Shown here: positions 33,403 to 64,000 of the stretch, piece after piece
Layout of the letters: each line of letters starts with the position of its first letter
How positions within the stretch are numbered: the first letter of the stretch is position 1
Notes under the pieces: model-generated
What the model was told of the DNA's origin: nothing
The model's input: only the letters and a program-made list of their open reading frames with translations
Database searches by the model: none
Assembly: GCF_003260995.1 (NCBI RefSeq)
Contig: NZ_CP030040.1
Coordinates: forward strand, 2,035,995-2,099,994
DNA length: 64,000 bases
From: Acetobacterium sp. KB-1
GTDB lineage: Bacteria; Bacillota; Clostridia; Eubacteriales; Eubacteriaceae
Direction of reading: 5' to 3'
Translations under genes and position numbers: made by a program

Positions 33403-34191
33403 CTATTTTGGATCAATCAGACCATATTTTTTCTTGATCCGTTCCAATTTTTCAATCATCGGGTTAGCTGCAACAAATAAGAAAAACACAGTGGCACTGG
33501 CATGAATCAAATCAAAGGGTGCCCCAGTGATATAAGTGGCTAAAATCGTTTTCCAGTTAATAATGCTGGACCACATCAGCAAGGATGCCATATTCATAAT
33601 TCCGCCATAGATAAAAAAGGTTGCCAGAAAGCCATACAGACAGAGCTGACCCTTGCTTTTTTTCATGGCACCCTTCTTTACCAGAATGCCCGCCAGAAAA
33701 CCAATAATACCGAAGGCAAACATCTGCCAGGGGGTCCAGGGGCCTTGACCAAAAAAGAAGTTGGACACAAAACAAACCATGGCTCCCACCAGAAAGCCGG
33801 ATTCGGCACCAAAACAAACCCCGGCAATGATGACAATGGCCACCACCGGTTTAAACTGTGGCAACATGAAAAAGGCGGCCCGTCCAGCGACACCGATAGC
33901 CGCCAGCACGGCGATGATAATCAGCTCTCGAGCCTGGGGCTTACGTCCTTCAAACACCATCAAAAAAGGGATGCAGGTATAGATAATAATAAACAGGCTG
34001 ATAAAATAATATTTACGATCTTCCATAAAATAAATACCAAACCAGATCGTCAGAGGAATCATCATCAGAATCATCATCAGGGCGGCCCATGTCCGTTTGC
34101 TCAGCCTTCTTTTGCTCAGATTTTTTTTGCCAGGTGGTTCGACCTGTTCTTCAACCTCATCTCGGTCATCTAGAAATTCATCTGACAACAT
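33403..34191 (-). CDS. ECF transporter S component, CbrT-like (predicted corrinoid specificity), second paralogue
   Basis: The 262-residue membrane protein has a charged N-terminal tail (1-32) and about seven helices. It carries GAMVCFVSNFFFGQGPWTPWQM and YGGIMNMASLLM, shared with the protein at 38221. The size, helix pattern and adjacency to EcfT and a double EcfA mark it as an ECF S component. Cobalamin-specific ECF-CbrT is known from Lactobacillus. Specificity here is inferred from the riboswitch-led operon. It overlaps the ATPase gene by 22 nt. Confidence 0.78.
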   Translation of the reverse strand: MLSDEFLDDRDEVEEQVEPPGKKNLSKRRLSKRTWAALMMILMMIPLTIWFGIYFMEDRKYYFISLFIIIYTCIPFLMVFEGRKPQARELIIIAVLAAIGVAGRAAFFMLPQFKPVVAIVIIAGVCFGAESGFLVGAMVCFVSNFFFGQGPWTPWQMFAFGIIGFLAGILVKKGAMKKSKGQLCLYGFLATFFIYGGIMNMASLLMWSSIINWKTILATYITGAPFDLIHASATVFFLFVAANPMIEKLERIKKKYGLIDPK

Positions 34192-35864
34192 GTAATCACA
34201 TCCTTTACTGTAATTGCATTTTCAAAGATATGCCGGGACATCCGGTTTGCTGAGGTGGTATAAAAACTGTTGCCCGAAAAAAAAGCCCGCGGTGAATTAC
34301 TGGTGACAATACTGCCATCAAAAAACAAGCCGCAAACATCCCCGAACAAGGCACAAAATTCAATGTCATGGGAAACCATAATAATGGTCACCCCCTGTTT
34401 TTGAAGTGCTCTCAAAATCTCGCCCAGTTCCCGCTTAAAGTGGTTATCCAGGCCTTTTGTTGGTTCATCGAGCAATAGAATCTGCGGTTCCAGTAGCATG
34501 ATCTTGGCCAGGGCCAGCCGTTGCTGTTCGCCGCCGCTGAGGTCGTAAGGGTGCTGATCCAACAAATGTTCAAGATGCATCAGTTTAACAAACTTATCCA
34601 CCATTGTTTTTTGGTTCTGATCGCAGTCAGAGGTGCTACCTTTTATCGCTCTGGTTCCGCCAATCATTTCATATAAATCCCGTTCCACCGTCTTTTTAAC
34701 AAACAGACTTTGGGGGCTTTGTGGCAGTACCCCCAACATGCCATGAAACAATTCTTTATCGGTTAGCTTTCTGACATCTCGGCCATTAAGTAGCACCTTG
34801 CCCCGATACGGTTTGTTGATCCCCGAAATCAGCGATAGTGAGGTTGTTTTCCCGGTGCCATTTCCGCCTACCAGACAGTAAAACTCGCCTTTTCGAACCC
34901 GCAGTGATAAGTCTTTAACCACATCCGGCAAGTTCTTATCATAGCGAAACCAAACCTCTTTAAGCTCCACGACCGGGTCACTTAATGCTGGCTCCGGGGT
35001 TTCCAGCGGCATGACTGTTTTTAGACCCGGATTATTGCAAAACAGTTCGCTCATCCACTTGCGGCCTTCTCTCACCGTAATCGGGCATTCCAGATCCGAT
35101 TCCACCTCGGCAAAAATCTGCATCGGGGCCGGCATCGATAAAAACATATCGTGACCAAGGGTCCGTAGTTTTTTTCCGATTTGGCGGGGGGTTCCCGTGG
35201 CGATGATTTCGCCTTCATCCATGACCACCACCTGATCGGCAACCGGGAGAACATCCTCCAGACGATGTTCGGTCATAATAATGGTGGTTCCCAGTTCGCG
35301 GTTGATTTTTTTAACCGTTTCCAGAAAATCCGAAGCTGCAATAGGATCAAGCTGAGAGGTTGGTTCATCCAGAATCAGCACCGCGGGATGCATGGCCATA
35401 ATCGAGGCCAGATTCAGTAGCTGCTTTTGTCCCCCGGACAATTCCACGACATTGCGTTTAAACCAGCCCTGGATGCCAAAGTAGGAGGCCATTTCAGCGA
35501 CTCGCAGACGAATGGTCGGGGTATCATAGCCCAGGCTTTCAAGACCAAAGGCCAGTTCATGCCAGACCTTATCAGTGACAATCTGATTTTCCGGGCTTTG
35601 CAGCACGTAGCCAATTTCCTGACTCTGGGTTCTTAAATCGGCTTCTTCCAGGGGTTTTTCCCGATACAGGATTTCTCCGGTGCGTGTCCCATAAGGGGTC
35701 AGGACCGACTTAAAATGCCGGAGCAGGGTGCTTTTACCACAGCCACTTTTGCCGCACAGCACCACAAAATCCCCCTCCTCAATGGCTAGATTCATATTTT
35801 TCAGGGCCGGTTTATTCATCTCCGGGTAGGTAAAGCTCAGGTTGTTTATTCTTAATACTGTCAT
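34170..35864 (-). CDS. Duplicated ECF transporter ATPase (fused EcfA-EcfA')
   Basis: A 564-residue protein with two complete ABC ATPase domains. Domain 1 (about 1-240) has Walker A GKSGCGKST (38-46), VLQSPENQIV, LSGGQKQLLNLASIMA and LILDEPTSQLD. Domain 2 (about 290-545) has GGNGTGKTT, VLPQSPQSLF, LSGGEQQRLALAKIML and LLLDEPTKGLD. The Q-loop SPE-x-Q motif of domain 1 is typical of ECF ATPases. It lies between EcfT and the S component, forming the energising module of the operon. Confidence 0.9.
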   Translation of the reverse strand: MTVLRINNLSFTYPEMNKPALKNMNLAIEEGDFVVLCGKSGCGKSTLLRHFKSVLTPYGTRTGEILYREKPLEEADLRTQSQEIGYVLQSPENQIVTDKVWHELAFGLESLGYDTPTIRLRVAEMASYFGIQGWFKRNVVELSGGQKQLLNLASIMAMHPAVLILDEPTSQLDPIAASDFLETVKKINRELGTTIIMTEHRLEDVLPVADQVVVMDEGEIIATGTPRQIGKKLRTLGHDMFLSMPAPMQIFAEVESDLECPITVREGRKWMSELFCNNPGLKTVMPLETPEPALSDPVVELKEVWFRYDKNLPDVVKDLSLRVRKGEFYCLVGGNGTGKTTSLSLISGINKPYRGKVLLNGRDVRKLTDKELFHGMLGVLPQSPQSLFVKKTVERDLYEMIGGTRAIKGSTSDCDQNQKTMVDKFVKLMHLEHLLDQHPYDLSGGEQQRLALAKIMLLEPQILLLDEPTKGLDNHFKRELGEILRALQKQGVTIIMVSHDIEFCALFGDVCGLFFDGSIVTSNSPRAFFSGNSFYTTSANRMSRHIFENAITVKDVITCCQMNF

Positions 35865-35958: not shown

Positions 35959-36909
35959 TTATGGTGCTTCCACACTCACCTGCATTTCCATATGGAACTC
36001 TTTTTCCGGTATCACCGCCTTCATTTTTTCCCATCTCAGGTAAGACAGACCGTCTACTGCCACTGGCATCAAACAAAAGGCTCCAAAAATGAAATAAGTA
36101 AAAAAACTAAAAAAGGTGACCGGGTTAATGCCACTTATAACAATAGCGGGATTATATTGAACAAAGGTGTTACCCATCGATACCCCGACAATAAACAACA
36201 GCAGCAAGCCCAGCATCATTGCCAGCATTCCCTTATCCCGTTTATCAAAACGATAGAGGGAAAAGGCCGTTCTACCGCTTAGCCCATAGCCTCTCGCCTT
36301 CATGCTGTCCGCGGTTTCAATGGCATTTTCCAGCGCCCAGGTGACCATAATCGAGAGAATGGTTACCCCATGTCTGGCCCGCATTAAGATATTACCGTTG
36401 GTAATATCCCGACCAATGCATTTCTGTCCATTACTGATCACCTTAAGCTGAGCCTTGAATTTTGGTACAAACCGCAAAACCATGGAAAAAATCAGCGACA
36501 GTGCCGGGATGATTCGCCCAAACAGATAGATAAACTTGTCCGATGTCATAATAATGTTATAACAGGAAAACCAGATTATCACCTGGACCAGCATCACCGA
36601 CATCACAATGCCATAAATGATGGATTCCAAGGTGATGGGATTGCCATTTTTCAAGTAAAACAAGATGGTTACCCCAGCATGATTAAAGAGCGGGTTAATC
36701 AGCGCTACAATAATTAACATTGGCAGCATAAATAAGAAATTAAATTTCAGCACCTTCTGCCAGCCTTGAAGCACCATAGAATAGATGATTGCCGATATAA
36801 GCGACACGCCCAAAATCACCGGGTGATTAAAAAACACACTGATGGTCAGGACGACTACAAAATAGAAAAAATTTATGATCGGATGATAGGTCGAAAAAGC
36901 ATCTTCCAT
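35959..36909 (-). CDS. ECF transporter T component
   Basis: The 316-residue protein has several helices near the N-terminus and a long cytoplasmic region with the coupling motif VTWALENAIETADSMKARGYGLSGR, the A-R-G signature of EcfT proteins. ATG at 36909 follows AAGGAGG and is preferred over an upstream in-frame start. It couples the S components on either side to the double ATPase. A perfect stem-loop separates it from the lipoprotein gene upstream. Confidence 0.88.
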   Translation of the reverse strand: MEDAFSTYHPIINFFYFVVVLTISVFFNHPVILGVSLISAIIYSMVLQGWQKVLKFNFLFMLPMLIIVALINPLFNHAGVTILFYLKNGNPITLESIIYGIVMSVMLVQVIIWFSCYNIIMTSDKFIYLFGRIIPALSLIFSMVLRFVPKFKAQLKVISNGQKCIGRDITNGNILMRARHGVTILSIMVTWALENAIETADSMKARGYGLSGRTAFSLYRFDKRDKGMLAMMLGLLLLFIVGVSMGNTFVQYNPAIVISGINPVTFFSFFTYFIFGAFCLMPVAVDGLSYLRWEKMKAVIPEKEFHMEMQVSVEAP

Positions 36910-36972
36910 TGACACCCTCCTTAATGATTTGTTGATAAACAATTACGAAACAAAAAACATTGAGCGGCCATT

Positions 36973-37039: not shown

Positions 37040-38140
37040 CTACCACATGCTATTATCCCCAACATCTCTGCCCAGATCGCAGGTGTAAACCCAGTTAATG
37101 ACATCACCCTGTTTGACGGCGTATTGACTGCACCCGTAATTGGGGAACCAACCATTGACATTATACATCCATCCGGAACGCTCCCCACCGTCAAACTCAT
37201 AAAGCTGGTTGATACCCTCAACATAAGCGGAGTTATAAGCCGGTGTAAAACTGGATTCCATGTGAATACCATTGTCCCGACAGACCCGTTGAAGCACATC
37301 GTGAACCGATTCTCCCGCGTTAAAGCTCACTTCCGAGGGGTAAAGAATCCAGCCGTTGGCCGGAACAAAGGCACCCTTTCCTGAAGGCAATCGGTCCATA
37401 TGATCGAGCAGGGTCGAACAATTAATTGAAAGGGTACAGACATTGCCAGCCGAACTGCTACTGCTTGAACCATCCGCTGCTGCCATACCGTCTCCTGTTG
37501 TTCCTGATTCACCTGAACTGGCATTCTGGATCGGTGCAATGGTTTTGCCAGCCACAACATAATAATCATCTCCAGTCTCAATGACCTTAAAGGATAAGCG
37601 AGTCGTAGCTGATTGGGGATCAAAGGTGGCATTACTCATCTTAGCAACGCTTCCGGCATTGACTTTACACAGCGCAGCACTGTCTGCGTCCCATTTTTCC
37701 GCAAGGGTGATGGTTAAGGTTGGAACGGTAATCAGCCCGTTACTCCCAGCTATTTTCATCCCAATGCCATAGGGCGCATTTCCGGCCCCTGCTTTAATTC
37801 GATTAAGGGTGTCACCCTGGGTGCTAAATTCAATTTTCAAGTTCTGATCAACCGGGTTTTTGATATCCTTACCACTAAACGACCAAACGTAATTGATGCC
37901 ATTTTCCCCGGTGCCCGAAAAAGTTACCGTTCGATCCTGACCGGCGATGGAGCGAAACTGGGCCGCAGTAATTACGCCATCCTCCGGGATCGCAGTATCA
38001 TCTGCTAATTCCACGACATCCTGTGACTCCGCATCACTGGATAATGCTGCATTAATATTGCTGCACCCCAAGGTTGTTACTGCCATTAAAATAAACATAA
38101 GCAGTAGCAACAGCCACCTCTTTTGCAAACCTTCCTTCAT
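37040..38140 (-). CDS. DUF4430 (transcobalamin C-terminal-like) lipoprotein
   Basis: The 366-residue protein has a lipoprotein signal with lipobox TTLGC (C26), a middle beta-rich region (about 60-205), a Ser/Gly linker (about 208-232) and a C-terminal DUF4430 domain (about 235-360) with VHDVLQRVCRDNGI, SGWMYNVNGWFPNYG and QGDVINWVYTCDLG. DUF4430 corresponds to the beta domain of intrinsic factor and transcobalamin. Its place between the S component and EcfT genes suggests it hands corrinoid to the ECF transporter. That role is inferred. Confidence 0.82.
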   Translation of the reverse strand: MKEGLQKRWLLLLLMFILMAVTTLGCSNINAALSSDAESQDVVELADDTAIPEDGVITAAQFRSIAGQDRTVTFSGTGENGINYVWSFSGKDIKNPVDQNLKIEFSTQGDTLNRIKAGAGNAPYGIGMKIAGSNGLITVPTLTITLAEKWDADSAALCKVNAGSVAKMSNATFDPQSATTRLSFKVIETGDDYYVVAGKTIAPIQNASSGESGTTGDGMAAADGSSSSSSAGNVCTLSINCSTLLDHMDRLPSGKGAFVPANGWILYPSEVSFNAGESVHDVLQRVCRDNGIHMESSFTPAYNSAYVEGINQLYEFDGGERSGWMYNVNGWFPNYGCSQYAVKQGDVINWVYTCDLGRDVGDNSMW

Positions 38141-38207: not shown

Positions 38208-38223
38208 GTACCGGCAATTGTTA
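38208..38223. repeat. Possible solo arm of the palindromic element
   Basis: GTACCGGCAATTGTTA resembles the outer arm GTACCGACCAATTGTTA of the elements at 4-13 kb. No matching second arm was seen. It overlaps the end of the downstream S component gene. Confidence 0.3.
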
Positions 38224-39168
38224 TTGATACAGACCGAATTTTATTTTTACCCGCTCCAGCTTCTCGACCATCACCGGACCCAACATCGCCCCAAAAAACG
38301 CCGTCCCCAGCGCGTGAACCGCATCATAGGGTACACCGGAAATATATAAAAGCTTCATGGAGCTCCAATCCATGGCCATTCCGGAACCAGAAACACCGAC
38401 TGACATCACCAATGCAGCGATGTTCATGATTCCCCCATAAATGATGAAGGTCGTCAGAAAACCAAAGACCCCGATGGTTAGCCGATCGACAGGTAGCCGC
38501 TTGTGCTGAATCAGAATGCCAATTAAAAGACCAATAGCGCCATATCCATAAAGCTGCCACCCCATAAAGGTCCCGCCTACATTGAGAAACAGGTGCATCA
38601 GCAGGCCAATTAGAATTGCGAAAAGCACACCCATAACCGGACCCAAAACGATTTTAAAATCGCTTTCCTTTTTAACAAATTCCAGGTCTTTATTAAAGCA
38701 GAGCCCCGCTAAAAATCCCAATAAGCCCCAGCAAAACATCTGCCAGGGGGTCCAGGGTCCCTGACCGGCAAACATATTTACCACCAGCCGGGCCATGGCC
38801 CCGGTTAGAAATCCCTGTTCCGGACCCAGACAAATTCCAGCAATGATAATCAGTGCACCGCCAGCCTGGAACGGGGTAATCATAAAAAAGGCCAGATTCC
38901 CACAGGCAGCAATGGCGGCCATTGCTGCAATCAACACCAGTTCCCGAGCTTCCGGCTTTCTATTTTCAAAAGACAAGCCAAACGGAATAAAGCTGTAAAA
39001 AATAATCAGCAAACTAATAAATAAGTATTTCCGATCCCCCAAATAGGTAATCCCCACCCAGATAGTCAGGGGGATCAGGATAAAAACTAATAGTGATGAA
39101 ATCAGGGTGCGATTCTTAAAAAGCCGTGTCCATGGCGAATTTTTAATTTTGTTATCAACCGTATTCAT
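38221..39168 (-). CDS. ECF transporter S component, CbrT-like (predicted corrinoid specificity), first paralogue
   Basis: The 315-residue protein has about eight hydrophobic helices, with the shared motif MFAGQGPWTPWQMFCWGLLGF and YGGIMNIAALVM, and is paralogous to the S component at 33403. It is longer by an inserted segment (about 165-205). Its start overlaps the stop of the membrane-anchored DUF4430/toroid gene (ATGA), which implies coupled synthesis and a physical partnership. Corrinoid specificity is inferred from context. Confidence 0.8.
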   Translation of the reverse strand: MNTVDNKIKNSPWTRLFKNRTLISSLLVFILIPLTIWVGITYLGDRKYLFISLLIIFYSFIPFGLSFENRKPEARELVLIAAMAAIAACGNLAFFMITPFQAGGALIIIAGICLGPEQGFLTGAMARLVVNMFAGQGPWTPWQMFCWGLLGFLAGLCFNKDLEFVKKESDFKIVLGPVMGVLFAILIGLLMHLFLNVGGTFMGWQLYGYGAIGLLIGILIQHKRLPVDRLTIGVFGFLTTFIIYGGIMNIAALVMSVGVSGSGMAMDWSSMKLLYISGVPYDAVHALGTAFFGAMLGPVMVEKLERVKIKFGLYQ

Positions 39169-42100
39169 GCCCGTTTCATTCTCTTTTTCTTAACCAGATA
39201 CATGGTTGCTCCCACAATACCGGTCAGTAGAATCACAACACCGCCAAAAATCATCGGACCATTGATTTGATCAATGATCATGGCCCCAGAATTTTCCGCC
39301 TCAGCAGTTTTTGCGTTTGGAGTATAGGTACCATCAAACGACCAGGGTGTAAAATTCTCAGCAGACGTTCCACCCTTTGAAGCAGCCGTCGCCGTCGTGC
39401 CGGTAGCAGATCCGGCGGCCGTTGTTCCACCACTCGCTTTTGCAACCGTACCACTTCCGCCTGATTTTGTAGTACCAAAACTCTGTTCATATTCTTTTTT
39501 TATATCATCGAGGCTTTTTTCTTTGTCAATGACTGGGTTAAAGCCATCGGTAATCCCAAAAATCCAGGGTTTCCCACTTTTTAAGCGATTATAGGAAATC
39601 ATCGCTTGCATGGCCTGATAAGAAGCCATCCCATTGAGCGTGCCGGGTTCGCCGCCACCGTTGCCGGTACCGCCGGCTTTTATATGCATAAAGCCGCCTC
39701 CGTCGACATAATAGTTCATCAAATCGGATAAGATCCAATGATCACCCTTGATAAAACGGGGATCAGCGGCGGGATCAATGCCCAGCGAGGTCAATGCTAG
39801 AATGACCTGGGATGTGCTCTCAGAGGTTTCCGGTGCACCAAAGGTGCCATAACTGCCGTTGCTATTCTGAAGTTCAGCCAAGGTGTTCACGGCCCGGTCA
39901 ACGACTGGTTTAACATCTTCCCGATCTTTATATTTCGCCAACGACTGAAGCGTCATCGCCGTCACATCCGTATCCGGAGCCGCATCAGCACTGTCTGAAT
40001 ACAGTGAAAAGCCACCCCGGACCCCGGCACTGGTTACCACTTCCCGATCCAGAATGGTTTGAATCAGAAGTTCCCGGGTGGTTTGCACACCCGTTGTATT
40101 GAGCGGTATCTCGTAATTATTTGAATCCAACGCAATCAGTGCCCAAACATAGGCCATCATGCCACCCCGCTTAATCTGGGTAAAATTGGACAGTTTACTC
40201 AGCAGATTATAACCACCAACATCGGTAGGATCTTTGCCAATGGCAGTTAAAGCCAAAATGGTTTTTGAATAGTCGGTATTGGTCCGATCACCGGAAATTG
40301 ATCCGCCCCCTTCGTTTAACTCCTTTACCACATTACTGTAGAACAGTTCATAATAGCCTTCCGGCACCGCATACCCCCCTCTGGCAAAGCAGACGGTTTC
40401 CCAGAGACCGCTTTGAATGGTCGGATTTGCCGCTGCTATTAGCATATAATCCGATGTTTTCTCCAGCGCTTTGGTGATTTCCGGTTCCAACGGATTAATC
40501 TGTTCGGTATTGATCGTTGTTTGCAAGGTTTTAAGGGAAGTTCTATCCACGATAATTCCCAGCAGTGAAGGATTGACGCTTTTGAATTCAATTCGATTTT
40601 CTAAAAGTGTATACTGGTCTTTGTCAATCACTGTAACGGTTCCATCTTTTTGCTGGGTAACAATGCTTAACTGATCATAAGCCAGAACATCGTTACTCAC
40701 CGATAATGATATGGTTAATCGCTCATCTGAAGTAGGCATATAGTCCAGGTTGTAGTTTGTCATATCTTTTAAGGATATGGTGTATAAATTTAATAATTGG
40801 GTTGATTCCGAACTAATTTTTTCGTTTTTCAGCAGCTCGATAAATTTGCTATAGGCTATCTGTGTAACCTTAACCTGATCCACCTGTTGACTGACATACC
40901 AGGGCGTATCAACAACAATATCGCCGCCTGCCTTATTTTGTGCTTTCACTCGTTTCTGAAGCCCCAGAATTTTATCTTTCACGCTGGTGTCCAGGAGTCT
41001 CTGCTGACTTTCTGCTAAACAGTCATATGCTTTTCCCAGTTCTAAGAATGTTAAAAACTGATAAGAACCAATCGTTAACGTCTGCTCATCAATGTCTGAA
41101 GTCGCAAGCTGGATCTGCTTAACAATCTCTAGTTCCGCCGTATTTAAGATCTCACTATTTTCAACCAGCCCCTGCTGGTCGGTATTTAATGCTTCATAAT
41201 CTTTGCGGGCAGCGGATACCTGTTTAACATCAGCCAGCGTTAATGCTTGAGGTAAGTCTGCAATGGTTGCCATGACGATTCTTGCAGCATTCTGATTGTT
41301 TTTTTTGATCAGCTTGATCATTTTTTCGCAGGCCGTCAGTTTATCAAGTGCTTCTTTGGGAACAAGACTTTGTTGCTCAGCGGTTAATCCACTGACAAAA
41401 TCAGCTCTCGCCGATACCACTGCCGCTTCGTTTATTAGCTTAGTCTGATCGGGCTCTGGGAGCAGATTAATGGCGGCAATCACCTGATTTGCCAGCGCCT
41501 GATTTACCTCCAGTTCAGCCATCCGATTGAGCAAAGCCGTCAGCTTCTCGATTGCCGAAACACTCACCAGCCGCTTGGTATTTTCGGGACTAACCTCGTA
41601 CTCGGCTTTGATCGCTTCCAGCATCGGCTTATCCGAAAGCACCAACGCTTTAATTTTTGGTAAAGCGTTTATTTTTGCCGTGATGCCATCCGCCAATTCC
41701 CGCGGCGTGGCCACCGTCACCTCACACTTCGCGGTGTGGCCACCGGCTGTTTGGGCAGTAATCGTTGCCGTTCCCTTGCCAGTTGCCGTAACCAAACCCG
41801 ATGTGGATACCTCCACAACTCCAGTATCCGAACTTAACCATCGCACCTCTTTTGCGTCCGTTGTGCTCTCCGGCGTATAAAAGACACTCAACTGATGGAT
41901 TCCCGCCGTCTCCAGGGCCAATCCATTTAAACTAAGCTTAATACCGGTCATCGGGATGGCTCTTACATCGACCAAACAGGTCGCGCTTAAATCGCCACTT
42001 TGTGTTGTTGCCAAAACCGTTGTCAGACCTGGCCCCATCCCGGTAACCACACCATTATCATCAACCATCGCCACGTCCGGATTAGCGGACTGCCAGTTCA

Positions 42101-44323: not shown

Positions 44324-44373
44324 CTTCTCCCTCACTTCATTAATCAAAATTTTTTTACATTTTCCAAACAATT

Positions 44374-44427
44374 ACAAAAAAAGAGCTCCCGTCTCAATCA
44401 AAAAATGACTGACGACAGAAGCTCCAG
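44374..44427 (-). terminator. Terminator of the 44.5 kb riboswitch
   Basis: GAGCTTCTGTC and GACGGGAGCTC form an 11-bp stem (two G-U pairs), then TTTTTTTG on the minus strand. The same design is seen at 49464 and 57653. Confidence 0.85.
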
Positions 44428-44474
44428 AATATGCTGTAGAACTTTGTTTGGCATGTATCCTCAAGTGCGAAGGA

Positions 44475-44655
44475 TTATACCGGTTAATAAAGAATAGGTT
44501 CCCGACTCATGCCCAAAGGCAATTACGGTAGCGCATCTGTTCAGGACTTTCACCTGGATTCCCCTAAGATAATTTGATCGATAAATCTGATCACCTTATC
44601 AAGCCTAATAGAATTGACTGAGATCAAACTCACCATTCCCGGCATTCTTTATAAC
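44475..44655 (-). promoter_or_regulatory. Cobalamin riboswitch (short form) upstream of the surface/ECF operon
   Basis: Minus-strand core GGGGAATCCAGGTGAAAGTCC, GCGCTACCGTAATTGCC, then after only about ten nucleotides the B12 box GAGTCGGGAACCTATTC. The long P8-P12 segment and GCCACTG element of the other riboswitches are missing. A 5' segment GAATGCCGGGAATGG is conserved with the copy at 49.6 kb. Confidence 0.87.
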
Positions 44656-49551: not shown

Positions 49552-49735
49552 TAATTGCGAAGGTCGATTGCTGTTGCTAAAGAATAGGTTCCCGGCTTAT
49601 GCTTTTGGCAATTACGGTAGCGCATCTGTTCGGGATTTTCACCCGGATTCCCCTGAAGCAAACAAAAAGGCCTTGCCTGCTTAAGCCTAATGGAATAATG
49701 TGATTGACTAACACCATTCCCGGCATTCTTTATGA
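49552..49735 (-). promoter_or_regulatory. Cobalamin riboswitch (short form) upstream of the DUF4430-ChW/toroid-ChW operon
   Basis: Minus-strand core GGGGAATCCGGGTGAAAATCC, GCGCTACCGTAATTGCC, B12 box AAGCCGGGAACCTATTC, with the conserved 5' segment GAATGCCGGGAATGG. It lacks the long P8-P12 segment. Confidence 0.87.
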
Positions 49736-53500: not shown

Positions 53501-56090
53501 CTGCAGAAGCAAGTGCTGTCTCCGCCTGTGCAACCAGTTGATCGACCTCTTCTCGTGTCAAAGCGGCCCGCTGCCAGACACTGCTGCCGTTATAAACGTC
53601 ACCTAACGCAATAATATATTGAGTGCTATTAAGACCGACAAACTCATCTCTCTCTAGATAAGTTAGGGCACTCTTATCGCCATTTGCCCATAGCGCTCCG
53701 TTAATATCTAATCCCGAGGCCGCCAAACCAGATACCACACAAGAATGAGTTAAAATATTATAGTTCGTATACTGTGGATTTTGGAAAGCACCATTATAGT
53801 CCCCTTCAGTTTCCTGGTAATTCTTAATATCACGAACTGCTGAAACGATTTTAGCTTCGACTCCCGGGACATCGTTATGGCTGGCCAATGCAATCAAGGC
53901 CCACCCCCGCATATCCAGATCAAAACTGCTACTGGCCGCCTCCGAAGCTACTTTATTTATGAGTATATCCTGTTTGTTGTATTGAGCCCCGGCAGCATCA
54001 AGGGCCATCAAGGCCCAGATATTGCTCCCCCACGGACCAAAACTGCCGCCTTCCCCTTGCTCTCCTAAGAGCTTTTCGACATAGTTAATACCATGGTAAT
54101 TATACGGGTTTTCGCCGCTGAGTACCAGCTCCAAAATAATCGCACCATAACTGGTTGCTGATGTGGAGTTGTGGGTTTCGACATTATAGGCATATTTCCT
54201 GTTCAGATCGCCATTGGCTGCCGCATATGCAAAAACATCCCAATAAGTATTGGTCAGTTGATCTCCTTGACTTGCTTCAAAATTCTTTATGGATTTATCC
54301 AGTAACGTTTTTGCCCGCTGTTTAGTATCGTCTGAAACAGTTTCTTTAACCAGGGGAAATTCGAAATAGTAAGCATTGCTAAAGGAAACTCCATCGGAAG
54401 TTGCGTCGACCGTAACGATTAACTCCTGTGTGTCAGCACCCACGGTGATTGTATTATTATTTAATACTGTTGTATCGGTAACATCGAGTTCCGTCCAGTT
54501 TTTGGAAATTGCCGAAATCTTCGCTCCCTCTGTTAGCGTAAATGTAAAACTTATGTCCTCACTGCCTGTTGAGGTTACCAGATAGCGAGACAAGTCACTT
54601 TTAAATGATTGATCCAAGGTCGCATTAGTGATTTCTACCCCTTCCATATTGGCTCCACCTTGCGTCCACTTAATATAGATATCATGGAGCTCTTCTTTTG
54701 TTTCATCCCCATTAGCCGGAGTAATACTAATCGAAATAGGCGTTTCTTCGTTTAATACGTCAGGATCAAGGTAAAGAAGATAGCTCCCGCCAACTTTTTG
54801 TGTAGCGCCATTAATCCCAATGATAGCGTTCGTATCAGTTGGCAAAACTTTCGCACACAAGTATTGATCCGTGGTTTTTAAATCAATATAGTTTTTCCCA
54901 TTTTCTTCATAAATCTTATGTTCTTTAAAAACTTCACCGGGTTTATTTGTATTTGGTGCCAGCGCCCGATATAATTGAATCGGCTCTTTTAGTGAAACAT
55001 CTTCGCCAGGTGTTACCAAGTAGGTATTATCACCTTCACGCATTAATAAAATCACTCGGGTTGAATAATTGATTGGTATATTATAAGATGAAGATGGTCG
55101 TACTTCACCATCACTTCTACTTCTAATCTGTAAGATATTCAGTCCCTGATTTAATACCAGCTCCTGACTAATGCCCGTTCCGTTACCATCAACACGAGAC
55201 CATGCTCCCCCATTAATAGAGACATAATTACTATTCTGTTGATAAAACTCACTTAAATACTCTCCACTTTCAACATAGGGATAGGTTGTCGTGACTAATC
55301 CACGTTTTAAAGATAAACGAATGGATCTAATCTCATCCGGCAACTGATTTTCCAAATTGATTCCAGCATAACTATCCGCTTTCACGTACTGATAGTCATC
55401 TTCGAGTACCGCCTTTGTTTCCCCATTATAGAGCGTAATATCTTGATAATCGATTTTTCGATCAGAACTATGTGATGCTGGAGAAATACCCGTTCCGTTA
55501 TCATTTAAGATTAAATAGTAGACCTCGCTTTCATTGTTATCTGTGACAGTTATTTTAAAGCAGGTCATTCCATAATGAACGCTAAGAAAATTATCAGGAC
55601 TTGGCACTGGACCAGTTGTAATAAAAGGGTTTTCCGGCTCAATAGGCGTTGCCCCTAAAGCTATGCCTGCCCCCGTATAACCCATGGTATAATCAATCGC
55701 CAGATTCTTTTCATTCAGATTATTTGGATCAGACAAATCACTAATTTCTACGGTTGCAGTGGGCGATTTTCGTTCACCGGCAATAAACAGATAACAATTT
55801 TTAGTATTATCTTTTATATCTGCATAATAAATGTTATGTTCACCATCCAGCAATTGGGGCTGAAAATACGTCGTTCTGAACGCGCTAATTTTTTGGTACA
55901 TATTGAAATCAGTGTAAGGCATCGCTGATTTCTTTGTAGTTCCAATGGTTAAACTTTTTAGCTCTGATGAATAAACAACCGGGGCGCTATCATCCAACTC
56001 CTCGGCATGAATCATTTGAGGAATTACTCCCCCTAATATAAACAATAATAAAAATACCGAAAAAAAGACTATATACTTCTTTGTTTTCAT
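50580..56090 (-). CDS. Giant surface protein 1: beta domains, alpha/alpha toroid, DUF4430, helical repeats, three ChW repeats
   Basis: The 1836-residue protein has a signal peptide (about 1-29), beta-rich cadherin-like domains (about 45-585), an alpha/alpha toroid (about 590-840: TSATSYGAIILELVLSG, GGSFGPWGSNIWALMALDAAG, LDMRGWALIALASH), helical repeats (850-1100), DUF4430 (about 1108-1252: SGWMYFVNNSSPSVGM, NGDVLRLAFTYWGTGADVTG), more helical repeats of the pattern ALPAVxKLxLTDK..YDALT..QKxLVTNL (1270-1530), a beta domain (1535-1665) and three ChW repeats (1675-1815). AGGAG precedes the ATG. It contains both transcobalamin-type domains on one chain; corrinoid binding is inferred. Confidence 0.82.
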   Translation of the reverse strand: MKTKKYIVFFSVFLLLFILGGVIPQMIHAEELDDSAPVVYSSELKSLTIGTTKKSAMPYTDFNMYQKISAFRTTYFQPQLLDGEHNIYYADIKDNTKNCYLFIAGERKSPTATVEISDLSDPNNLNEKNLAIDYTMGYTGAGIALGATPIEPENPFITTGPVPSPDNFLSVHYGMTCFKITVTDNNESEVYYLILNDNGTGISPASHSSDRKIDYQDITLYNGETKAVLEDDYQYVKADSYAGINLENQLPDEIRSIRLSLKRGLVTTTYPYVESGEYLSEFYQQNSNYVSINGGAWSRVDGNGTGISQELVLNQGLNILQIRSRSDGEVRPSSSYNIPINYSTRVILLMREGDNTYLVTPGEDVSLKEPIQLYRALAPNTNKPGEVFKEHKIYEENGKNYIDLKTTDQYLCAKVLPTDTNAIIGINGATQKVGGSYLLYLDPDVLNEETPISISITPANGDETKEELHDIYIKWTQGGANMEGVEITNATLDQSFKSDLSRYLVTSTGSEDISFTFTLTEGAKISAISKNWTELDVTDTTVLNNNTITVGADTQELIVTVDATSDGVSFSNAYYFEFPLVKETVSDDTKQRAKTLLDKSIKNFEASQGDQLTNTYWDVFAYAAANGDLNRKYAYNVETHNSTSATSYGAIILELVLSGENPYNYHGINYVEKLLGEQGEGGSFGPWGSNIWALMALDAAGAQYNKQDILINKVASEAASSSFDLDMRGWALIALASHNDVPGVEAKIVSAVRDIKNYQETEGDYNGAFQNPQYTNYNILTHSCVVSGLAASGLDINGALWANGDKSALTYLERDEFVGLNSTQYIIALGDVYNGSSVWQRAALTREEVDQLVAQAETALASADDGLKKDNLKEKLTATKTAAQSVGENIVTGLGESYYALKNALALVDSTIKPDVTIGSDQVQADYVIGLISALPTGATSDAKKPTRLAYYALNDTQKKLVTNRSLILDDSDIAGEVTILINALPSLESITIDHKTAVMGVRSAYDLLTESQKLLISATTLQKLTDSEAKIKALEGAGEISADQKAANAVIEKINALGSILSYSQKATVDAARAAYTSLTTYQRNLVTNLSQLEAAEAKIIALTPECTITVTIERFTIGQGFYIEPQTLTIKQGDTAWDAVEKLLGAENMVIGNDPGYLAAIKGADSGAVSIPKYIIDELNAGDTNAAKSHGKTQSGNTLGEKDYSDYSGWMYFVNNSSPSVGMKGSTLKNGDVLRLAFTYWGTGADVTGKGTDGNNVTYEMSFTPENRDSLLKALAKVNGNTAYLSDAAISEAYEAAMTIVQDMTAKIKPINDATTALNKAIADYKPGDPANDAKLAKVVTDQIAALPAVAKLTLTDKAAVTAARTAYDALTTAQKALVTNLGTLTAAEAKITELQTAADKVAAKAVSDQIAALPAVDKLALTDKDAVAAARAVYDALSEAQKKLVTNLSTLTAVETQMAKLLAGEATEADKAAAKAVSGQISGLPSGDKLALGSKADVVAARTAYNKLTDIQKALVSNLDALAVAEARIAELEAATPPAKDEATGIEVVGLPEGVGLKVEPESGDADKTDEAEKAATEAGIKDAKVVSLYSIKPDMSDEALAEFNNNPDSFVTLTMPLGDDQQGYDSYKIYHKKTDGTVEWITPILSADGKSLLFKVNAFSEFGVVATKAVEIPTVDFSYRTHVQNVGWQDWKNNGAMSGTQGQSLRLEGIEIKRADTADVDMGIRYETHIENIGWEDSWKADGIMSGTEGKALRLEAIRIELTGAAAENYDVYYQVHAQNTGWMAFAKNGEDAGTAGFGYRLEGIHVIVVPKGQAAPTPEEGSIETAFLVKN

Positions 56091-56186: not shown

Positions 56187-56738
56187 CTACCAAGTAGTTT
56201 CAACATATTTATAATCCCAAACAATCGTATCATCATCATCTAAAACAACATTGCTAGCGTAAAGATTGCTTTCCGAACCATTGATATACAATACCCAGCT
56301 ATAACCATGCCAATAAGACTGACCTGGTGTCCCGCTATAATATGATTCAACTTCGCTCATTGGTGTATAAAAAAACTCGTTTACATAATATCCTGTGCCT
56401 ACAGAATCATAACCATATGTCATTCCGTCGAGTGACTGAGATCCCATTGCATCATAATAAGCTGAGATGGTTGCATCAAAAGCTGTTGGCGTTCCAGAAT
56501 TGGGATAATTTGCTGGAAGTGGTGCTAAAACCGCAGCTGTATCATCAACAGTTACTGACATATCTTCCAGTGATGAATCAATGGGCACACCATCTTCACA
56601 AAAAGAAACCTTCACAGTTACCGGAGTAGCTGCTTTTACCACATTCATTCCCGGCAATACCACCATCGCTAATGTCAGCAACGTCGCTAGTACCAACATC
56701 ATCAACTTATTCTTTTGCAAACTTAAACTTTTAAACAT
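56187..56738 (-). CDS. Small secreted DUF4430-like protein
   Basis: The 183-residue protein has a signal peptide (cleavage near NVVKAAT) and a single DUF4430-like domain with WHGYSWVLYINGSESNLY and LDDDDTIVWDYKYVETTW, which matches the W-x-x-Y-x-N-G ... D-x-I-x-W-x-Y pattern of the family. There are no ChW repeats and no anchor, so it may be released or held by a partner. GGAGG precedes the ATG. A divergent loop rich in Gly and Tyr (about 90-130) sets it apart from the other DUF4430 proteins here. Confidence 0.75.
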   Translation of the reverse strand: MFKSLSLQKNKLMMLVLATLLTLAMVVLPGMNVVKAATPVTVKVSFCEDGVPIDSSLEDMSVTVDDTAAVLAPLPANYPNSGTPTAFDATISAYYDAMGSQSLDGMTYGYDSVGTGYYVNEFFYTPMSEVESYYSGTPGQSYWHGYSWVLYINGSESNLYASNVVLDDDDTIVWDYKYVETTW

Positions 56739-57652: not shown

Positions 57653-57703
57653 CAAAAAAAGAACTCCCATCAAAGCCAAAAAAGGCCTTAGACAGAAGTT
57701 CCA
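57653..57703 (-). terminator. Terminator of the 57.8 kb riboswitch
   Basis: GGAACTTCTGTC and GATGGGAGTTC pair on the minus strand, then TTTTTTTG. Same design as at 44374 and 49464. Confidence 0.83.
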
Positions 57704-57749
57704 GTGTTGCTGTAGAACTTTTATGATCTGATCCACTCTGCGTTGAATC

Positions 57750-57890
57750 GTATCTGTCGATAAAGCTTGAGTTCCCGACTGATGCCTTGCGGCAATCACG
57801 GTAGCGCATCTGCTTGGGAATTTCACCCGATTCCTCGCGGTAAAAACATCACTGTTTTTACCATAGCCAATATAATTCGGCGACTTTATC
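57750..57890 (-). promoter_or_regulatory. Cobalamin riboswitch (short form), third copy
   Basis: Minus-strand core GAGGAATCGGGTGAAATTCCC, GCGCTACCGTGATTGCC, B12 box CAGTCGGGAACTCAAGC. It lacks the long P8-P12 segment and the GAATGCCGGG 5' segment of the other two short copies. Confidence 0.83.
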
Positions 57891-58536: not shown

Positions 58537-61500
58537 TCAGTTTTTAACCAGAAAAGCGGTCTCAATGCTTCCGTCTTCAGGTGTCGGTGCAGCTTGACCT
58601 TTGGGTACCACAATCACGTGAATCCCTTCCAGGCGATAGCCAAATCCTGCTGTTCCGGCATCTTCACCGTTTTTGGCAAAGGCCATCCAACCAGTGTTCT
58701 GAGCATGAACCTGATAATAGACATCATAGTTTTCAGCATCGGCTCCGGTTAATTCAATCCGGATCGCTTCCAGTCTTAATGACCGGCCTTCAGTACCACT
58801 CATGATGCCGTCAGCTTTCCATGAATCTTCCCAGCCGATATTTTCTATGTGGGTTTCGTAACGAATCCCGAGATCCACGTCAGCAGTATCGGTCCGTTTG
58901 ATTTCGATCCCTTCCAATCGTAACGATCGACCCTGGGTTCCACTCATAGCCCCATTATTTTTCCAATCCTGCCAGCCTACATTCTGGACATGAGTGCGGT
59001 AGCTGAAATCAACGGTGGGGATTTCAGTTGGTGCTTCTGTTCCCACTACGCCAAATTCCGAGAAAGCACTCACTTTAAAGATCAGCGATTTCCCATCGGC
59101 AGACAGGGTTGGGGTAATCCATTCCACCGTGCCGTCAGTTTTTTTGTGATAGATTTTGTAACTGTTATACCCCTGTTGATCATCCCCCAACGGCAGTGTC
59201 AAGGTCACAAAACTTTCCGGATCGTTATTAAATTTGGCCAGATCTTCGTCACTCATATCCGGCTTGATGCTATAGAGACTGACGATTTTAGCATCTTTGA
59301 TATCCGCTTCTTTCGCCGCTTTTTTAGCTGCTTCCGTTTTGTCGGTATCATTTGTTTCGGGTTCAACCTTCAGACCAACGCCTTTGGGTAATCCGACCGC
59401 TTCAATGCCGGTCGCTTCGTCTTTTACCGGCGGAGTAGCCTTTTCTAACTCGGCTAATTTCGCTTCGGCAGCAACCAAAGTATCCAAGTTTGTAATCAGA
59501 GATTTTTGAATATCCGATAAAGCATTATAAGCAACACGAACAGCAACCACATCAGCCTTGCTGCCCAGGGCCAGTTTGTCGCCAGATGGCAATCCACTAA
59601 TCTGTCCGCTGACAGCTTTAGCCGCGGCCTTGTCGGCTTCGGTGGCTTCGCCAGCCAGCAGCTTGGCCATTTGTGTTTCGACGGCCGTCAATGTACTAAG
59701 ATTCGTGACCAGCTTTTTCTGGGCTTCGCTTAACGCGTCATAGACAGCCCGGGCGGCAGCAACCGCATCTTTGTCGGTCAGTGCCAGCTTATCCACTGCC
59801 GGTAAAGCGGCAATCTGATCACTAACAGCCTTGGCAGCAACCTTATCGGCGGCGGTCTGAAGCTCGGTGATCTTGGTTTCGGCGGCAGTTAAGCTACTCA
59901 GGTTGCTAACCAACGCTTTCTGAGCGCTCGTTAATGCATCATAAGCAGTTCGAGCAGCTACTACCGCAGCTTTATCAGTCAGTGCCAGTTTAGTTATTGC
60001 CGGCAATCCGGCGATCTGATCGCTGACTGCTTTGGCCAGTTTGGCATCATTAGCTGTGTCTCCACCTGGTTTATATGCAGATATGGCTTTATTTAAATTA
60101 GTGGTAGCGTTATTGGTGACACTCGGCGACGAAGTCATGTCCTGCACTACCGTCATGGCGGTTTCATAGGCTTCACTGATCGCTGCATCACTTAAGTACG
60201 CGGAATTTCCGTTAACCTTGGCAATGGCTTCAAGCAGACCGTCTTTATTGGCCGGTGTAAAACTCATTTTAATCGGAGTCCGATCTATTCCACTTCCGAT
60301 ATAGCCACTTCCGGTTAAATCAGCACCGGTTGCCCAATAGGTAAAGGCTAATCGCAACACATCACCATCGTTTAATTTTTTTTGATCCATACCCACGTTA
60401 GGTGTATTATTATTGACAAAGTACATCCAACCGGAATAAGAGCTATAGTCAAATTCTTCCAGGTCACTGCCAGTGTATTTCTGTCCATAGGCATTGGCAA
60501 CACTGCTGTCTCCAGCGTTTAATTCTTTTACAATGTACGAAGGAATGGTAGCCGTTCCGGTATCAGCACCTTTAATTCCGGCAAGATAACCCACGTTGCC
60601 AAGCAGATTCCCGCTACCCAACAACTTTTCAATGGCTGTTCTCGCCGTATCACCTTCTTTAATTGACAGGGTCGTTGGTTTCACATAAAAACCCTGGCCA
60701 ATGGTGAAACGTTCCACGTCAACCGTAATCGTAATCGCTTTGGGCTCTTCAGTTTCACCACCTGGCTCTTCACCTGTTCCAGCATTTTTAAGGACCGTTA
60801 TTTGATCTTCAAGGTCTTTCAGTTTCGCCAAATTGGTGACCAATTTTTGTGGATCAGGCAAAAGGTTATTATAAGCATTTCGGGCGGCTACAACAGCCGC
60901 TTCATCCGTAAGTTTTAACTGATCCTTTGCCGGCAAAGCATCGATTTGATCGCTTACCACCTTGGCTGCAATCTCATCAGCCGATAGACTTTTAGTAATT
61001 CCGAAGGTTGAAAAAGAATTGACTTTAAAGATTAACGATTTGCTATCATCTGAGATAATCGGGGTTATCCATTCGGTGGTACTATTAGCTTTCTGATGGT
61101 ATACCCGATAATTGGTCGCTCCTTGCTGTCCATCAGGTATCGGCAAGATAATGGTCACATAGGTATCTGTTGAGTTATTAAAGGTTTCCAGATCTGCAGG
61201 ACTCATATCTGGTTTGATATCGTACAAAGTTACGATTTCGATATTTTTTAACCCTTCTTTTTCGGCTGCGTCTGCTGCTGCTTTTTTCAGATCGACATCA
61301 CTAATTTTATCTGTTATGGTCAATGCCGTTACAGTATTTGGTAAACCAACGACTTCAATGCCAGTGGCATCATTTTTTATACTTGATTCTTTTAACAATT
61401 CTATAATTTTTGCTTCCCGCGCTGCCAAGTCGCTTAAGTTCGTTACCAGTTCCTGCGCTTGCGAACTCGTTAATGCTTTATAAGCTGCGCGAACTGCCAT

Positions 61501-64000
61501 AACATCAGCTTTATCGCTGGCTTTCAGATCGTCTTTCGCAGGCAAGTTATTAATTAAATCAACAATACCCAAAGCCGTTATTCTTTCCTGATTCACCTTG
61601 CCAATTGAAGCTTTTTTTACATCACTCAAAGCCTCATAAGCATCTTTTGCAGCCTTGATATCATCAGTACTACTCGTACTAGTTAGTGCATTCAGCAAAT
61701 CATTTACCGGTTTGGTGGCCCCGACAATATCACTGGTATCAAAGATCTGGTTGCGACCTTCATACTGGCGAATGACGGCGGTAAAACCCCGAGTGAGCTG
61801 GGTGATTTCATAAGTCAATCCACCATAATTCTTGTTGTCAAAATCGATGAAATTAAATTGCGAATCCAGAACCGTGTTGCCGTTTTGAATGAAATGGTCA
61901 TCAAACACGTTCATATTAAAACAACCCAAGGCAATCATCATCTGGGCATTGTTATAGGCATTTAAGTCATAACCGGTAGTGGTAAAGGAGCCGTCTCCAT
62001 TTTGAAGGATTGGATTGTCACCACCCACGCGGTTATACATCAGGTTTTCAATCGCTGCCTTTAAATCCGTATTATCATTCATGTAAAAACCGTAATACTG
62101 GATAAACATGGCGTTATCCCCATTTGTAAGACTGCTGTCTTGCCATCCGTTAATATACGCTGCACCATTTTGCGCGATGGTTGCAAAATCAACGATGGGA
62201 TTCTCCGTTGTAACTGGATAGCCCCCACCAACTAGGGCAAGAATGGCGGTCTCTTTTTGCAGTATCAAGCTATTGTTCAGATACGACTTATCTGAAATGA
62301 TCTTAATCAGGTCATAGTCTTCAATATCCCGGGCATCATAACCGGCAGCGGTGATGGCCAGCACCAGCTTGGTCCAGGCGGTCACCTTCATATCGGTTGC
62401 CTCTAGGCCGCCTTCCTTAAGGGTATGAAGGCTGGTTTTGACATTGGCAAACCACTTGTCATAGAACGCGGTATCCCCACCGGGGACATAATCGCCCCGG
62501 GCTGCAGAGAACATGGCCCAAAAATCCTGCATGAATTCTTTGTCACCAACCGGACTGTCATTCACAGTAAGCGGCGTTAAATAGGCACTGCCATCGCCGA
62601 TATATTTCTCAAAGATGATGGTGTTGGCTTCCTTGGCTTTGGCAATTTGCGCATCCTGTTCGGTTTTATTTGGACCGGCGGCACCGTTATCCACAATTCT
62701 TGCTTGACCAGTAACAGCGCCATCAAAAACAAAGGTATAGCCATCAGTACTGGCTGCTTCTGTTTCACCAACGGTAATGGTAGGCTGAGTATTATATTCT
62801 ACTGTAACATCCCGCCAACCCAAATTCTGCATGCTCTTAAATACGGCGCTTTTGATATCGTTGGTTGGATCAAAGTTTATGGTAATTTTATATTTTTCTA
62901 CCAATGCTTTTTCCGCTTCGCTCAGTCCTGCAAACTCCATCCCGGTTACTTTGGCGGTCAAATCACTGCCGTCATTCCATATTTTTTCTTCAAAGGTTGG
63001 TTTAACGGACAACCTTTTAACAGCGGTTCGTATATCTAAATACGGGTATCCATCATTCGTTTCTGGTGAAATATTCCATATTTTATCAAAATCCCATCCA
63101 GAAAACGTGGATTGATCTTTTAGCTCTGCCGTTGTCTTACCAATAACCTTCTCTGGCGTATCTTTATATGCCACATCACTTCCAAATACAACTGCCGGTG
63201 TCAAGTTTTCGCTGTTATAGTACGATACCCCTTGTCCAGTTCCTGATGAATACACCGCTAAGCCAATTGCAACCCTCCCCTTTGTTGCCGTTGGTTTGGC
63301 AAAATCTGAATTTGTTACTTTACCCAGTGAATAGCATTTATTTAAATCCCCTTGACCACTTGCATAGAATTGGTAAAGCGAGACCCCTTGTGTTCTGCCT
63401 TGATATGCTTCGATTTCTTCAGGTGTTCCATCTAATGTATAATTGATGCTGCTAATGGAGTTTTCAATTATTTCTCCCCCAGCACCGTTTGAGCCAGTAA
63501 TACCAGCTACTGTTATTGTTTTTGTATTGGCGGCAGCTATTTTTATGTTACCTTCTACCTTAACATACTCAATTCTTCCATAATTGGCATCACATAACGG
63601 TGAACGCGCTGCCGTTGTTTCTGTTTTTGTTGTCCCATCATTAACAAGCACGTTGAGGTCTTTTATGATCCCATAGTTTCTTGGAATAATCGAACGTTGA
63701 GCAACAACTTCCAGATTATTTAATGTGATTTTATGCCCTAGCCCATCGAAAGTACCGTTGAAATTGCTATTATTGCTATTTATAATACTTAACTCATTAC
63801 CTTCTTCGATTTGAATATCTGCTGTTAAAACTACAGTTTCATTAAGGTAACCGGTTGAACCGGTAGCTGCCAGATCGGCCCGGAAGCTTTCCAATTGCGC
63901 CAATGTGCTAATCGTGTAAACCCCATCTGTTTTAGTCAGACTGGGGGTATAGTCTGCTGCAAAAGCAGTTAGTGGAAATATCAATCCAATAATCAGTAAT
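58537..64000 (-). CDS. Giant surface protein 2 (5' end cut by window edge): GLUG-like beta domain, toroid, DUF4430, helical repeats, three ChW repeats
   Basis: At least 1815 residues. The visible start lies inside a signal peptide (LLIIGLIFPLTAFAADYTP), so the true start is just beyond the window. In order: a GLUG/beta-helix-like domain (about 12-310, FNGTFDGLGHKITLNNLEV), a beta domain, an alpha/alpha toroid (about 445-770: FWAMFSAARGDYVPGG, VLAITAAGYDARDIEDYDL, NAYNNAQMMIALGCFN), helical repeats, DUF4430 (about 1115-1250: SGWMYFVNNNTPNVGMD), helical repeats, a beta domain and three ChW repeats at the end. From DUF4430 onwards it parallels giant protein 1, with one stretch nearly identical in DNA. 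Confidence 0.82.
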   Translation of the reverse strand, partial: LLIIGLIFPLTAFAADYTPSLTKTDGVYTISTLAQLESFRADLAATGSTGYLNETVVLTADIQIEEGNELSIINSNNSNFNGTFDGLGHKITLNNLEVVAQRSIIPRNYGIIKDLNVLVNDGTTKTETTAARSPLCDANYGRIEYVKVEGNIKIAAANTKTITVAGITGSNGAGGEIIENSISSINYTLDGTPEEIEAYQGRTQGVSLYQFYASGQGDLNKCYSLGKVTNSDFAKPTATKGRVAIGLAVYSSGTGQGVSYYNSENLTPAVVFGSDVAYKDTPEKVIGKTTAELKDQSTFSGWDFDKIWNISPETNDGYPYLDIRTAVKRLSVKPTFEEKIWNDGSDLTAKVTGMEFAGLSEAEKALVEKYKITINFDPTNDIKSAVFKSMQNLGWRDVTVEYNTQPTITVGETEAASTDGYTFVFDGAVTGQARIVDNGAAGPNKTEQDAQIAKAKEANTIIFEKYIGDGSAYLTPLTVNDSPVGDKEFMQDFWAMFSAARGDYVPGGDTAFYDKWFANVKTSLHTLKEGGLEATDMKVTAWTKLVLAITAAGYDARDIEDYDLIKIISDKSYLNNSLILQKETAILALVGGGYPVTTENPIVDFATIAQNGAAYINGWQDSSLTNGDNAMFIQYYGFYMNDNTDLKAAIENLMYNRVGGDNPILQNGDGSFTTTGYDLNAYNNAQMMIALGCFNMNVFDDHFIQNGNTVLDSQFNFIDFDNKNYGGLTYEITQLTRGFTAVIRQYEGRNQIFDTSDIVGATKPVNDLLNALTSTSSTDDIKAAKDAYEALSDVKKASIGKVNQERITALGIVDLINNLPAKDDLKASDKADVMAVRAAYKALTSSQAQELVTNLSDLAAREAKIIELLKESSIKNDATGIEVVGLPNTVTALTITDKISDVDLKKAAADAAEKEGLKNIEIVTLYDIKPDMSPADLETFNNSTDTYVTIILPIPDGQQGATNYRVYHQKANSTTEWITPIISDDSKSLIFKVNSFSTFGITKSLSADEIAAKVVSDQIDALPAKDQLKLTDEAAVVAARNAYNNLLPDPQKLVTNLAKLKDLEDQITVLKNAGTGEEPGGETEEPKAITITVDVERFTIGQGFYVKPTTLSIKEGDTARTAIEKLLGSGNLLGNVGYLAGIKGADTGTATIPSYIVKELNAGDSSVANAYGQKYTGSDLEEFDYSSYSGWMYFVNNNTPNVGMDQKKLNDGDVLRLAFTYWATGADLTGSGYIGSGIDRTPIKMSFTPANKDGLLEAIAKVNGNSAYLSDAAISEAYETAMTVVQDMTSSPSVTNNATTNLNKAISAYKPGGDTANDAKLAKAVSDQIAGLPAITKLALTDKAAVVAARTAYDALTSAQKALVSNLSSLTAAETKITELQTAADKVAAKAVSDQIAALPAVDKLALTDKDAVAAARAVYDALSEAQKKLVTNLSTLTAVETQMAKLLAGEATEADKAAAKAVSGQISGLPSGDKLALGSKADVVAVRVAYNALSDIQKSLITNLDTLVAAEAKLAELEKATPPVKDEATGIEAVGLPKGVGLKVEPETNDTDKTEAAKKAAKEADIKDAKIVSLYSIKPDMSDEDLAKFNNDPESFVTLTLPLGDDQQGYNSYKIYHKKTDGTVEWITPTLSADGKSLIFKVSAFSEFGVVGTEAPTEIPTVDFSYRTHVQNVGWQDWKNNGAMSGTQGRSLRLEGIEIKRTDTADVDLGIRYETHIENIGWEDSWKADGIMSGTEGRSLRLEAIRIELTGADAENYDVYYQVHAQNTGWMAFAKNGEDAGTAGFGYRLEGIHVIVVPKGQAAPTPEDGSIETAFLVKN

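Follow-up and report, generated by a model that had tools for sequence, protein, structure and literature searches.

A probable B12-repressed corrinoid-capture and import array in Acetobacterium sp. KB-1

Introduction

To our knowledge, the extracellular capture of B12 by Gram-positive bacteria has been little studied. A 64,000-nucleotide stretch of the Acetobacterium sp. KB-1 genome (the window; positions 2,035,995-2,099,994 of a 3.99 Mb single contig) carries an array that raises the question of whether such a bacterium captures corrinoids with counterparts of the animal B12 carriers. Its parts are six DUF4430 domains, a seventh of borderline score, four alpha/alpha toroids, ChW modules that serve as wall anchors, and an energy-coupling factor (ECF) transporter. 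An earlier note on this DNA had read them as a surface corrinoid relay controlled by cobalamin riboswitches, running from ChW proteins at the wall through a membrane-tethered toroid/DUF4430 protein and a DUF4430 lipoprotein to the ECF S components. The core idea is not new and belongs to Burroughs et al. 2007, who proposed B12 scavenging by transcobalamin-like SLBB proteins of Gram-positive bacteria (PMC1796856; all papers are cited for the parts of their text considered here). We consider the locus to be most likely a B12-repressed corrinoid-capture and import system, because regulation, importer and folds each point there by a different route.

Results

To which genes do the cobalamin riboswitches of the locus belong? 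The three in the window that reach the gathering score (at 14.1, 21.4 and 31.3 kb) precede in turn cbiM, the gene of a glutamine amidotransferase, and btuF; none stands before a surface gene, and the one at 31311, standing before btuF, was rejected as the array regulator. At a lowered threshold two more riboswitches were found directly before the surface genes 43070 and 48083 (genes are named by their lower window coordinate), and another two have the same core. Four divergent cobalamin riboswitches with terminators, R1 (44424..44599), R2 (49513..49688), R3 (57700..57869) and R4 (just past the window), head the units of the array, all on the minus strand. The control proposed in the earlier note is supported through these four copies, the three gathering-level riboswitches serving other operons. 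R1-R4 fall under gathering, at 17.6-25.7 bits with RF00174 (cut-off 31.5; R2 25.3, R3 24.2), and R1 scores 35.8 bits with RF01482 (cut-off 50). Genome-wide, 16 RF00174 matches were over gathering, and ranks 17-20 were the four array copies (E 2.2e-4, 3.0e-4, 6.1e-4 and 0.047), ranks 21 and 22 having E near 1. A terminator with a U run stands behind each of R1-R4, its hairpin at -23.0 to -27.4 kcal/mol, and a segment upstream can pair in competition with it. Terminator and competing pairing lie at 44376..44444 for R1 (-27.4 kcal/mol), at 49465..49533 for R2 (-24.0) and at 57654..57720 for R3 (-23.0).

A search for the variant core in 19 genomes of the genus gave 23 sites in 5 genomes, and none in the reversed control. 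Aligning the 23 distinct copies shows pairing in 91.7% of cells and a total of 26 double-sided changes, against a shuffle mean of 10.2 that is uncorrected for relatedness among the copies. These changes occur in three of the five named helices, and all five helices are kept across the copies. Each pair of the 4-bp loop-loop pairing TGCG/CGCA is kept by 22 or 23 of the 23 copies, and pairing in the last, P13-like helix reaches just 80% of cells. When a model of the variant copies was run on 61 genomes, the 24 strong matches (at least 104 bits; R1, a training member, scores 158.6) all lay in the same five genomes, and the next match scored 43 bits. The array copies have core helices, loop-loop pairing and a terminator-type switch in common with RF00174 and RF01482; they differ in their variant core, CAGATGCGCTACCGT, and in strong matches confined to the five array-bearing genomes. 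The comparison shows the RNA structure of R1-R4, and by analogy cobalamin or a related corrinoid would be the ligand and would switch transcription off. The variant is tied to array-bearing genomes and not strictly to array genes: copies in loci L221, L222 and L223 head no recognised toroid or DUF4430 gene, and L227, L228 and L229 are stretches too short to tell which genes they head. In L223 (G009:C28:50500-59200) the same variant heads CpXC, leucine-rich repeat (LRR) and other genes, and a second btuFCD-like set closes the unit.

The array, on the minus strand throughout, is read from the right as four units, headed by R4, R3, R2 and R1. R4, a CpXC gene and a small DUF4430-like gene lie just past the window, in stretch L007, and are followed by a giant toroid-DUF4430 protein with three ChW repeats (58537..64000, running on to 64044, the gene start, outside the window). 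R3 is followed by a small secreted protein (56187..56738) and a second giant, in which helical repeats stand between the toroid and a DUF4430 domain with three ChW repeats (50580..56090). The R2 unit consists of a DUF4430 protein with three ChW repeats (48083..49408), a toroid protein with three ChW repeats and without DUF4430 (45915..48083) and, as its last gene, a TIM-barrel protein (44886..45860; PF01261). The R1 unit opens with another DUF4430 protein with three ChW repeats (43070..44371), followed by a secreted protein with DUF4430, two Big_2 domains, a toroid and a C-terminal membrane segment (39165..42974), an S component (38221), a DUF4430 protein with a lipoprotein-like N-terminus and an atypical lipobox, TLGC (37040..38140), the T component (35959), fused ATPases (34170), a second S component (33403) and two LRR genes. 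Judging from gene order and strand, every riboswitch would drive the whole unit behind it. The listed TTG starts of 43070 and 48083 are probably too early, because a terminator ends 5 bases before the listed start of 43070.

The six DUF4430 domains and a divergent seventh that had been claimed were recovered at different strengths. PF14478, the Pfam model of DUF4430, exceeds its cut-off of 23.8 bits in five proteins, 37040 (65.3), 43070 (32.5), 48083 (30.5), 50580 (30.8) and 58537 (33.4 bits). The domain of 39165 falls below it (15.3 bits, E 0.027) and was recovered, at residues 24-181, by an iterated profile seeded with the 37040 domain. That profile missed 56187, which is borderline for PF14478 (22.4 bits, or 23.9 when the genome search took it together with its neighbours), and added one DUF4430 beyond the window, at L007:1645-2397, a frame to which Pfam at E 0.01 assigns no family. 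In a PF14478 search of the whole 3.99 Mb genome all 6 matches lay inside the window, 39165 not being one of them. The four toroids also held, each found by iterated profile: 39165 (residues 836-1125; model pLDDT 92.8), 45915 (209-464), 50580 (588-816) and 58537 (492-753 of the full 1835-aa frame). Pfam gave a sub-cut-off squalene-cyclase match in 39165 only. At profile level both domains are present in 39165, 50580 and 58537. Among relatives of 37040 in the named loci, a simple pattern finds a lipobox in 18 of 72, and many others have a hydrophobic N-terminal segment by eye.

ChW triplets were assigned by Pfam in 43070, 45915, 48083, 50580 and 58537, and the earlier note had placed ChW proteins at the wall in its relay. 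ChW is uninformative on B12 because it is a general anchor of Acetobacterium, with 99 matches in this genome and presence in 19/19 genomes of the genus; it was discarded as a B12 mark. The TIM barrel of the R2 unit is xylose-isomerase-like, and few relatives have one near the locus (2/20 and 1/40 loci).

What would the ECF transporter beside the surface genes carry? Its presence there was borne out: the unit is complete in a T component (35959..36942; PF02361, 27.4 bits) and two ATPase domains, fused in one protein (34170..35864; domain searches), and has two S components. For 33403..34191 (PF12822) the CbrT structure 6fnp was best in a profile search, and 38221..39168 was assigned by domain, PDB sequence and profile searches. 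Against PDB sequences the sole match of 38221 up to E 1 was 6fnp_A (E 0.0055), which is ECF-CbrT. A profile of 25 S-component relatives matched 6fnp at E 5.9e-17, followed by a riboflavin S component at E 4.9e-5. Both S components belong to the CbrT family, and their substrate would be a corrinoid. ECF-CbrT of Lactobacillus delbrueckii transports cobalamin and cobinamide and uses a module common to other S components, according to the text considered (PMC5997447); in the array, whose S components are its relatives by profile, the fused ATPase and the T gene instead share one unit with two S genes and the surface proteins. The literature on CbrU and CbrV yielded nothing useful.

A fold comparison with transcobalamin had been proposed as a check; it came out in favour of the two domains together and not of the toroid alone. 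The fused model is of a relative's protein, the joint presence of both domains in 39165, 50580 and 58537 being seen by profile. Foldseek gave this toroid-DUF4430 relative eight matches at E <0.001, all of them transcobalamin, intrinsic factor or haptocorrin (E 3.4e-7 to 1.6e-5 over 536-559 columns), and the next match had E 0.024. Identity to the animal carriers is 10-13%, and the placement of the domains differs from theirs (rmsd about 17 to 21 A, pTM 0.62). A second model was built from alignment A8, A6 and A7 being set aside, A7 for a misaligned toroid end. The DUF4430 part of the relative, L119 (68% identical to 43070), contributes to the full-length carrier matches with middling model confidence, and the isolated carrier beta domain (5no0, 5np4) was matched at E 0.13 and 0.16 only. 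For the toroid alone, terpene cyclases lead by structure; by sequence, squalene-hopene cyclase and alpha-2-macroglobulin were found and no carrier. The toroid was accordingly dropped as proof of B12 function, its sequence and structure alone pointing to non-carriers. The DUF4430 profile found no carrier among PDB sequences up to E 1. The animal carriers, like the fused relative, have a toroid and a beta-grasp fold in one chain. The array differs in that its proteins are wall- or membrane-anchored and its toroid and DUF4430 halves also occur on separate chains, and the closed arrangement of the two domains is not reproduced in the relative's model.

How far does the association extend? DUF4430, the variant riboswitch and CbrT-like S genes occur in the same 5/19 genomes of the genus, and searches of the remaining 14 found none of the three. 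For independent genomes, which these are not, two such 5/19 sets would coincide with a chance of 1 in 11,628. Gene order is conserved among sister arrays, and their domains vary: in G006 a single ChW protein combines toroid and DUF4430 (70% identity to 45915, 68% to 43070), and this genome has two proteins in its place.

In the phylum, PF14478 was found in 126/398 genomes, our own counted. Riboswitches were scored in 40 of the 126, chosen by hand from the matches listed (E to about 3e-14), with a limit of 70 contigs and a single genome for each genus; the choice was not exhaustive, and further genomes, G430 and G255 among them, also fitted these limits. Counting riboswitches at E 0.01, one lay on the same strand within 5 kb upstream of the best DUF4430 match in 32/40 genomes (0.18 expected), or in 31/40 if only those over the gathering score count, G319 holding the sub-gathering one; within 10 kb the count was 35/40. 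The control, the best match to SBP_bac_3 (secreted ABC binding proteins) in the 36 of these 40 genomes having one at E 1e-20, gave 0/36 at both distances. The regions around the 40 DUF4430 matches, mostly of 20 kb, held S components in 34, T components in 31, an ATPase in 32 (any ABC ATPase accepted) and toroids in 31. The co-occurrence of DUF4430, toroid, ECF genes and cobalamin riboswitches that the earlier note had expected in other genomes is thus seen in this sample. Frames with both toroid and DUF4430 numbered 36 in 60 loci examined. The 79 named loci (S 66, T 70, ATPase 72, DUF4430 77) come from the top 80 of 556 when ranked by similarity of the toroid, a biased set on which no claim is made.

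To the left of the array lie btuD-, btuC- and btuF-like genes of an ABC importer (27824..31205, minus strand; NCBIfam matches) and the canonical riboswitch before btuF (31311..31497, minus strand; RF00174 81.1 bits), outside the array. Further left, at window 380-27611, adjoins a near-complete anaerobic B12 pathway, with best NCBIfam matches, some below their own cut-offs, to cbiA, C, D, E, F, G, H, K, L and T, hemA, B, C, D and L, and cobA; cbiM, Q and O are also found further left in the window. From this pathway, the host looks like a B12 producer. The class-I glutamine amidotransferase gene (20177-20959) is the next listed frame after the canonical riboswitch at 21367-21551. An S-adenosylmethionine synthetase gene (L007:5022-6254) lies upstream, separated from the array by a single LRR gene. 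The spacer 49409-50579 contains a unit of about 47 bases in three tandem copies. The 50580 and 58537 genes have a common 3' stretch behind them, and copies or remnants of the CpXC gene stand behind riboswitches (window 50431-50579, 57602-57624 and 58517-58536; L007:2806-3510), probably as debris of a tandem duplication of array units.

Discussion

Together, these results suggest the following mode of action. When corrinoid is scarce, the four variant riboswitches would let transcription past their terminators. The cell surface would then present toroid and DUF4430 domains held at the wall by ChW anchors, together with the membrane-tethered DUF4430/toroid protein and the membrane-anchored DUF4430 protein. 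Going by the relative's model, toroid and DUF4430 would be expected to take up a corrinoid between the two of them, in the manner of transcobalamin, and the corrinoid would pass to the two CbrT-like S components, using one fused ATPase and one T component. For the relay of the earlier note, riboswitch control, CbrT-like S components and the joint carrier-type fold favour capture and import; that the corrinoid moves in order from the wall through the lipoprotein to the S component is a guess. More simply, the densely placed surface proteins may act as a store beside the ECF and BtuFCD importers, where they would raise the concentration of corrinoid locally. More tentatively, and in our view rather unlikely, the array may hold a split transcobalamin, in which the toroid of 45915 and the DUF4430 domains of 43070 and 48083, on separate ChW chains, close around the corrinoid in trans and form a net across the wall. 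Such a net would be under the control of a dedicated riboswitch variant, and the altered core of this variant may suit it to a corrinoid different from that of the 16 canonical switches.

Against the riboswitch association beyond the genus, five family relatives have no gathering-level riboswitch in 20 kb each, a threshold that would miss divergent riboswitches such as R1-R4. The array could also be B12-regulated with surface proteins that bind something else, as a B12-independent replacement system or an adhesion layer made when B12 is short, its toroids, like many others, binding a ligand that resembles a lipid or a sugar. The closeness of the toroid folds to terpene cyclases and sugar epimerases would fit such a role, as would the LRR, Big_2 and ChW modules typical of adhesins, but CbrT-like S genes lie within the same unit and toroid and DUF4430 together match B12 carriers best, and we regard this explanation as improbable. 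That the ECF system carries cobalt, the surface proteins having an unrelated role, is very improbable: its T and ATPase families are common to cobalt transporters, but its S components have CbrT as their best solved relative and are not CbiM-like, and CbiM, Q and O lie elsewhere in the window.

The cargo may also be precursors or damaged or foreign corrinoids (cobinamide, other cobamides) that the B12-making host remodels. This is a narrower form of the corrinoid-capture reading and may hold together with it; we give it an appreciable chance, if short of even. It would suit the near-complete anaerobic pathway of the host, the carriage of cobinamide by ECF-CbrT in the text considered (PMC5997447) and the presence of cbiD in 24/40 sampled DUF4430 genomes; the data at hand do not separate B12 from other corrinoids.

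The corrinoid-capture system proposed here resembles known ones in part. The BtuG and BtuH proteins of Bacteroides reportedly form a Gram-negative outer-membrane system with folds other than toroid and DUF4430. They are likewise reported to provide surface-exposed B12 capture that feeds an importer (PMC6143338, PMC8941943). The proteins of Burroughs et al. 2007 (PMC1796856) combine SLBB (DUF4430-type) and toroid in either order, are secreted and paralogous, and their genes share predicted operons with CbiO- and CbiQ-like ones, as here. The text considered of that paper makes no mention of riboswitch, ChW or ECF, and its section 7 part 1 does not describe separate toroid and DUF4430 proteins on ChW anchors. 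It also states that carriers of such proteins usually lack key B12 synthesis enzymes, whereas this host has the pathway; the statement was not upheld in our sample, in which cbiD was present in 24/40 genomes with DUF4430 and 10/20 without (Fisher P 0.58), the 20 being those that happened to appear in the phylum listing. In the literature on transcobalamin-like proteins, PF14478 and IPR027954, only the 2007 paper concerns bacteria by title or abstract, in a search that left subscription papers mostly uncovered, so that experiments may exist. What looks new here is the CbrT link, the riboswitch variant found in the same 5/19 genus genomes as DUF4430 and CbrT-like S genes, the separate and fused toroid/DUF4430 proteins on ChW anchors, and a host that has a B12 pathway itself.

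That bacteria have counterparts of the animal B12 carriers was first proposed in 2007. Riboswitch control in most sampled carriers, CbrT-like S genes and carrier-like folds now make that proposal a concrete, testable system. It sits in culturable acetogens that have the two carrier domains both fused and apart, and bacteria bearing a B12 pathway also carry the capture array.

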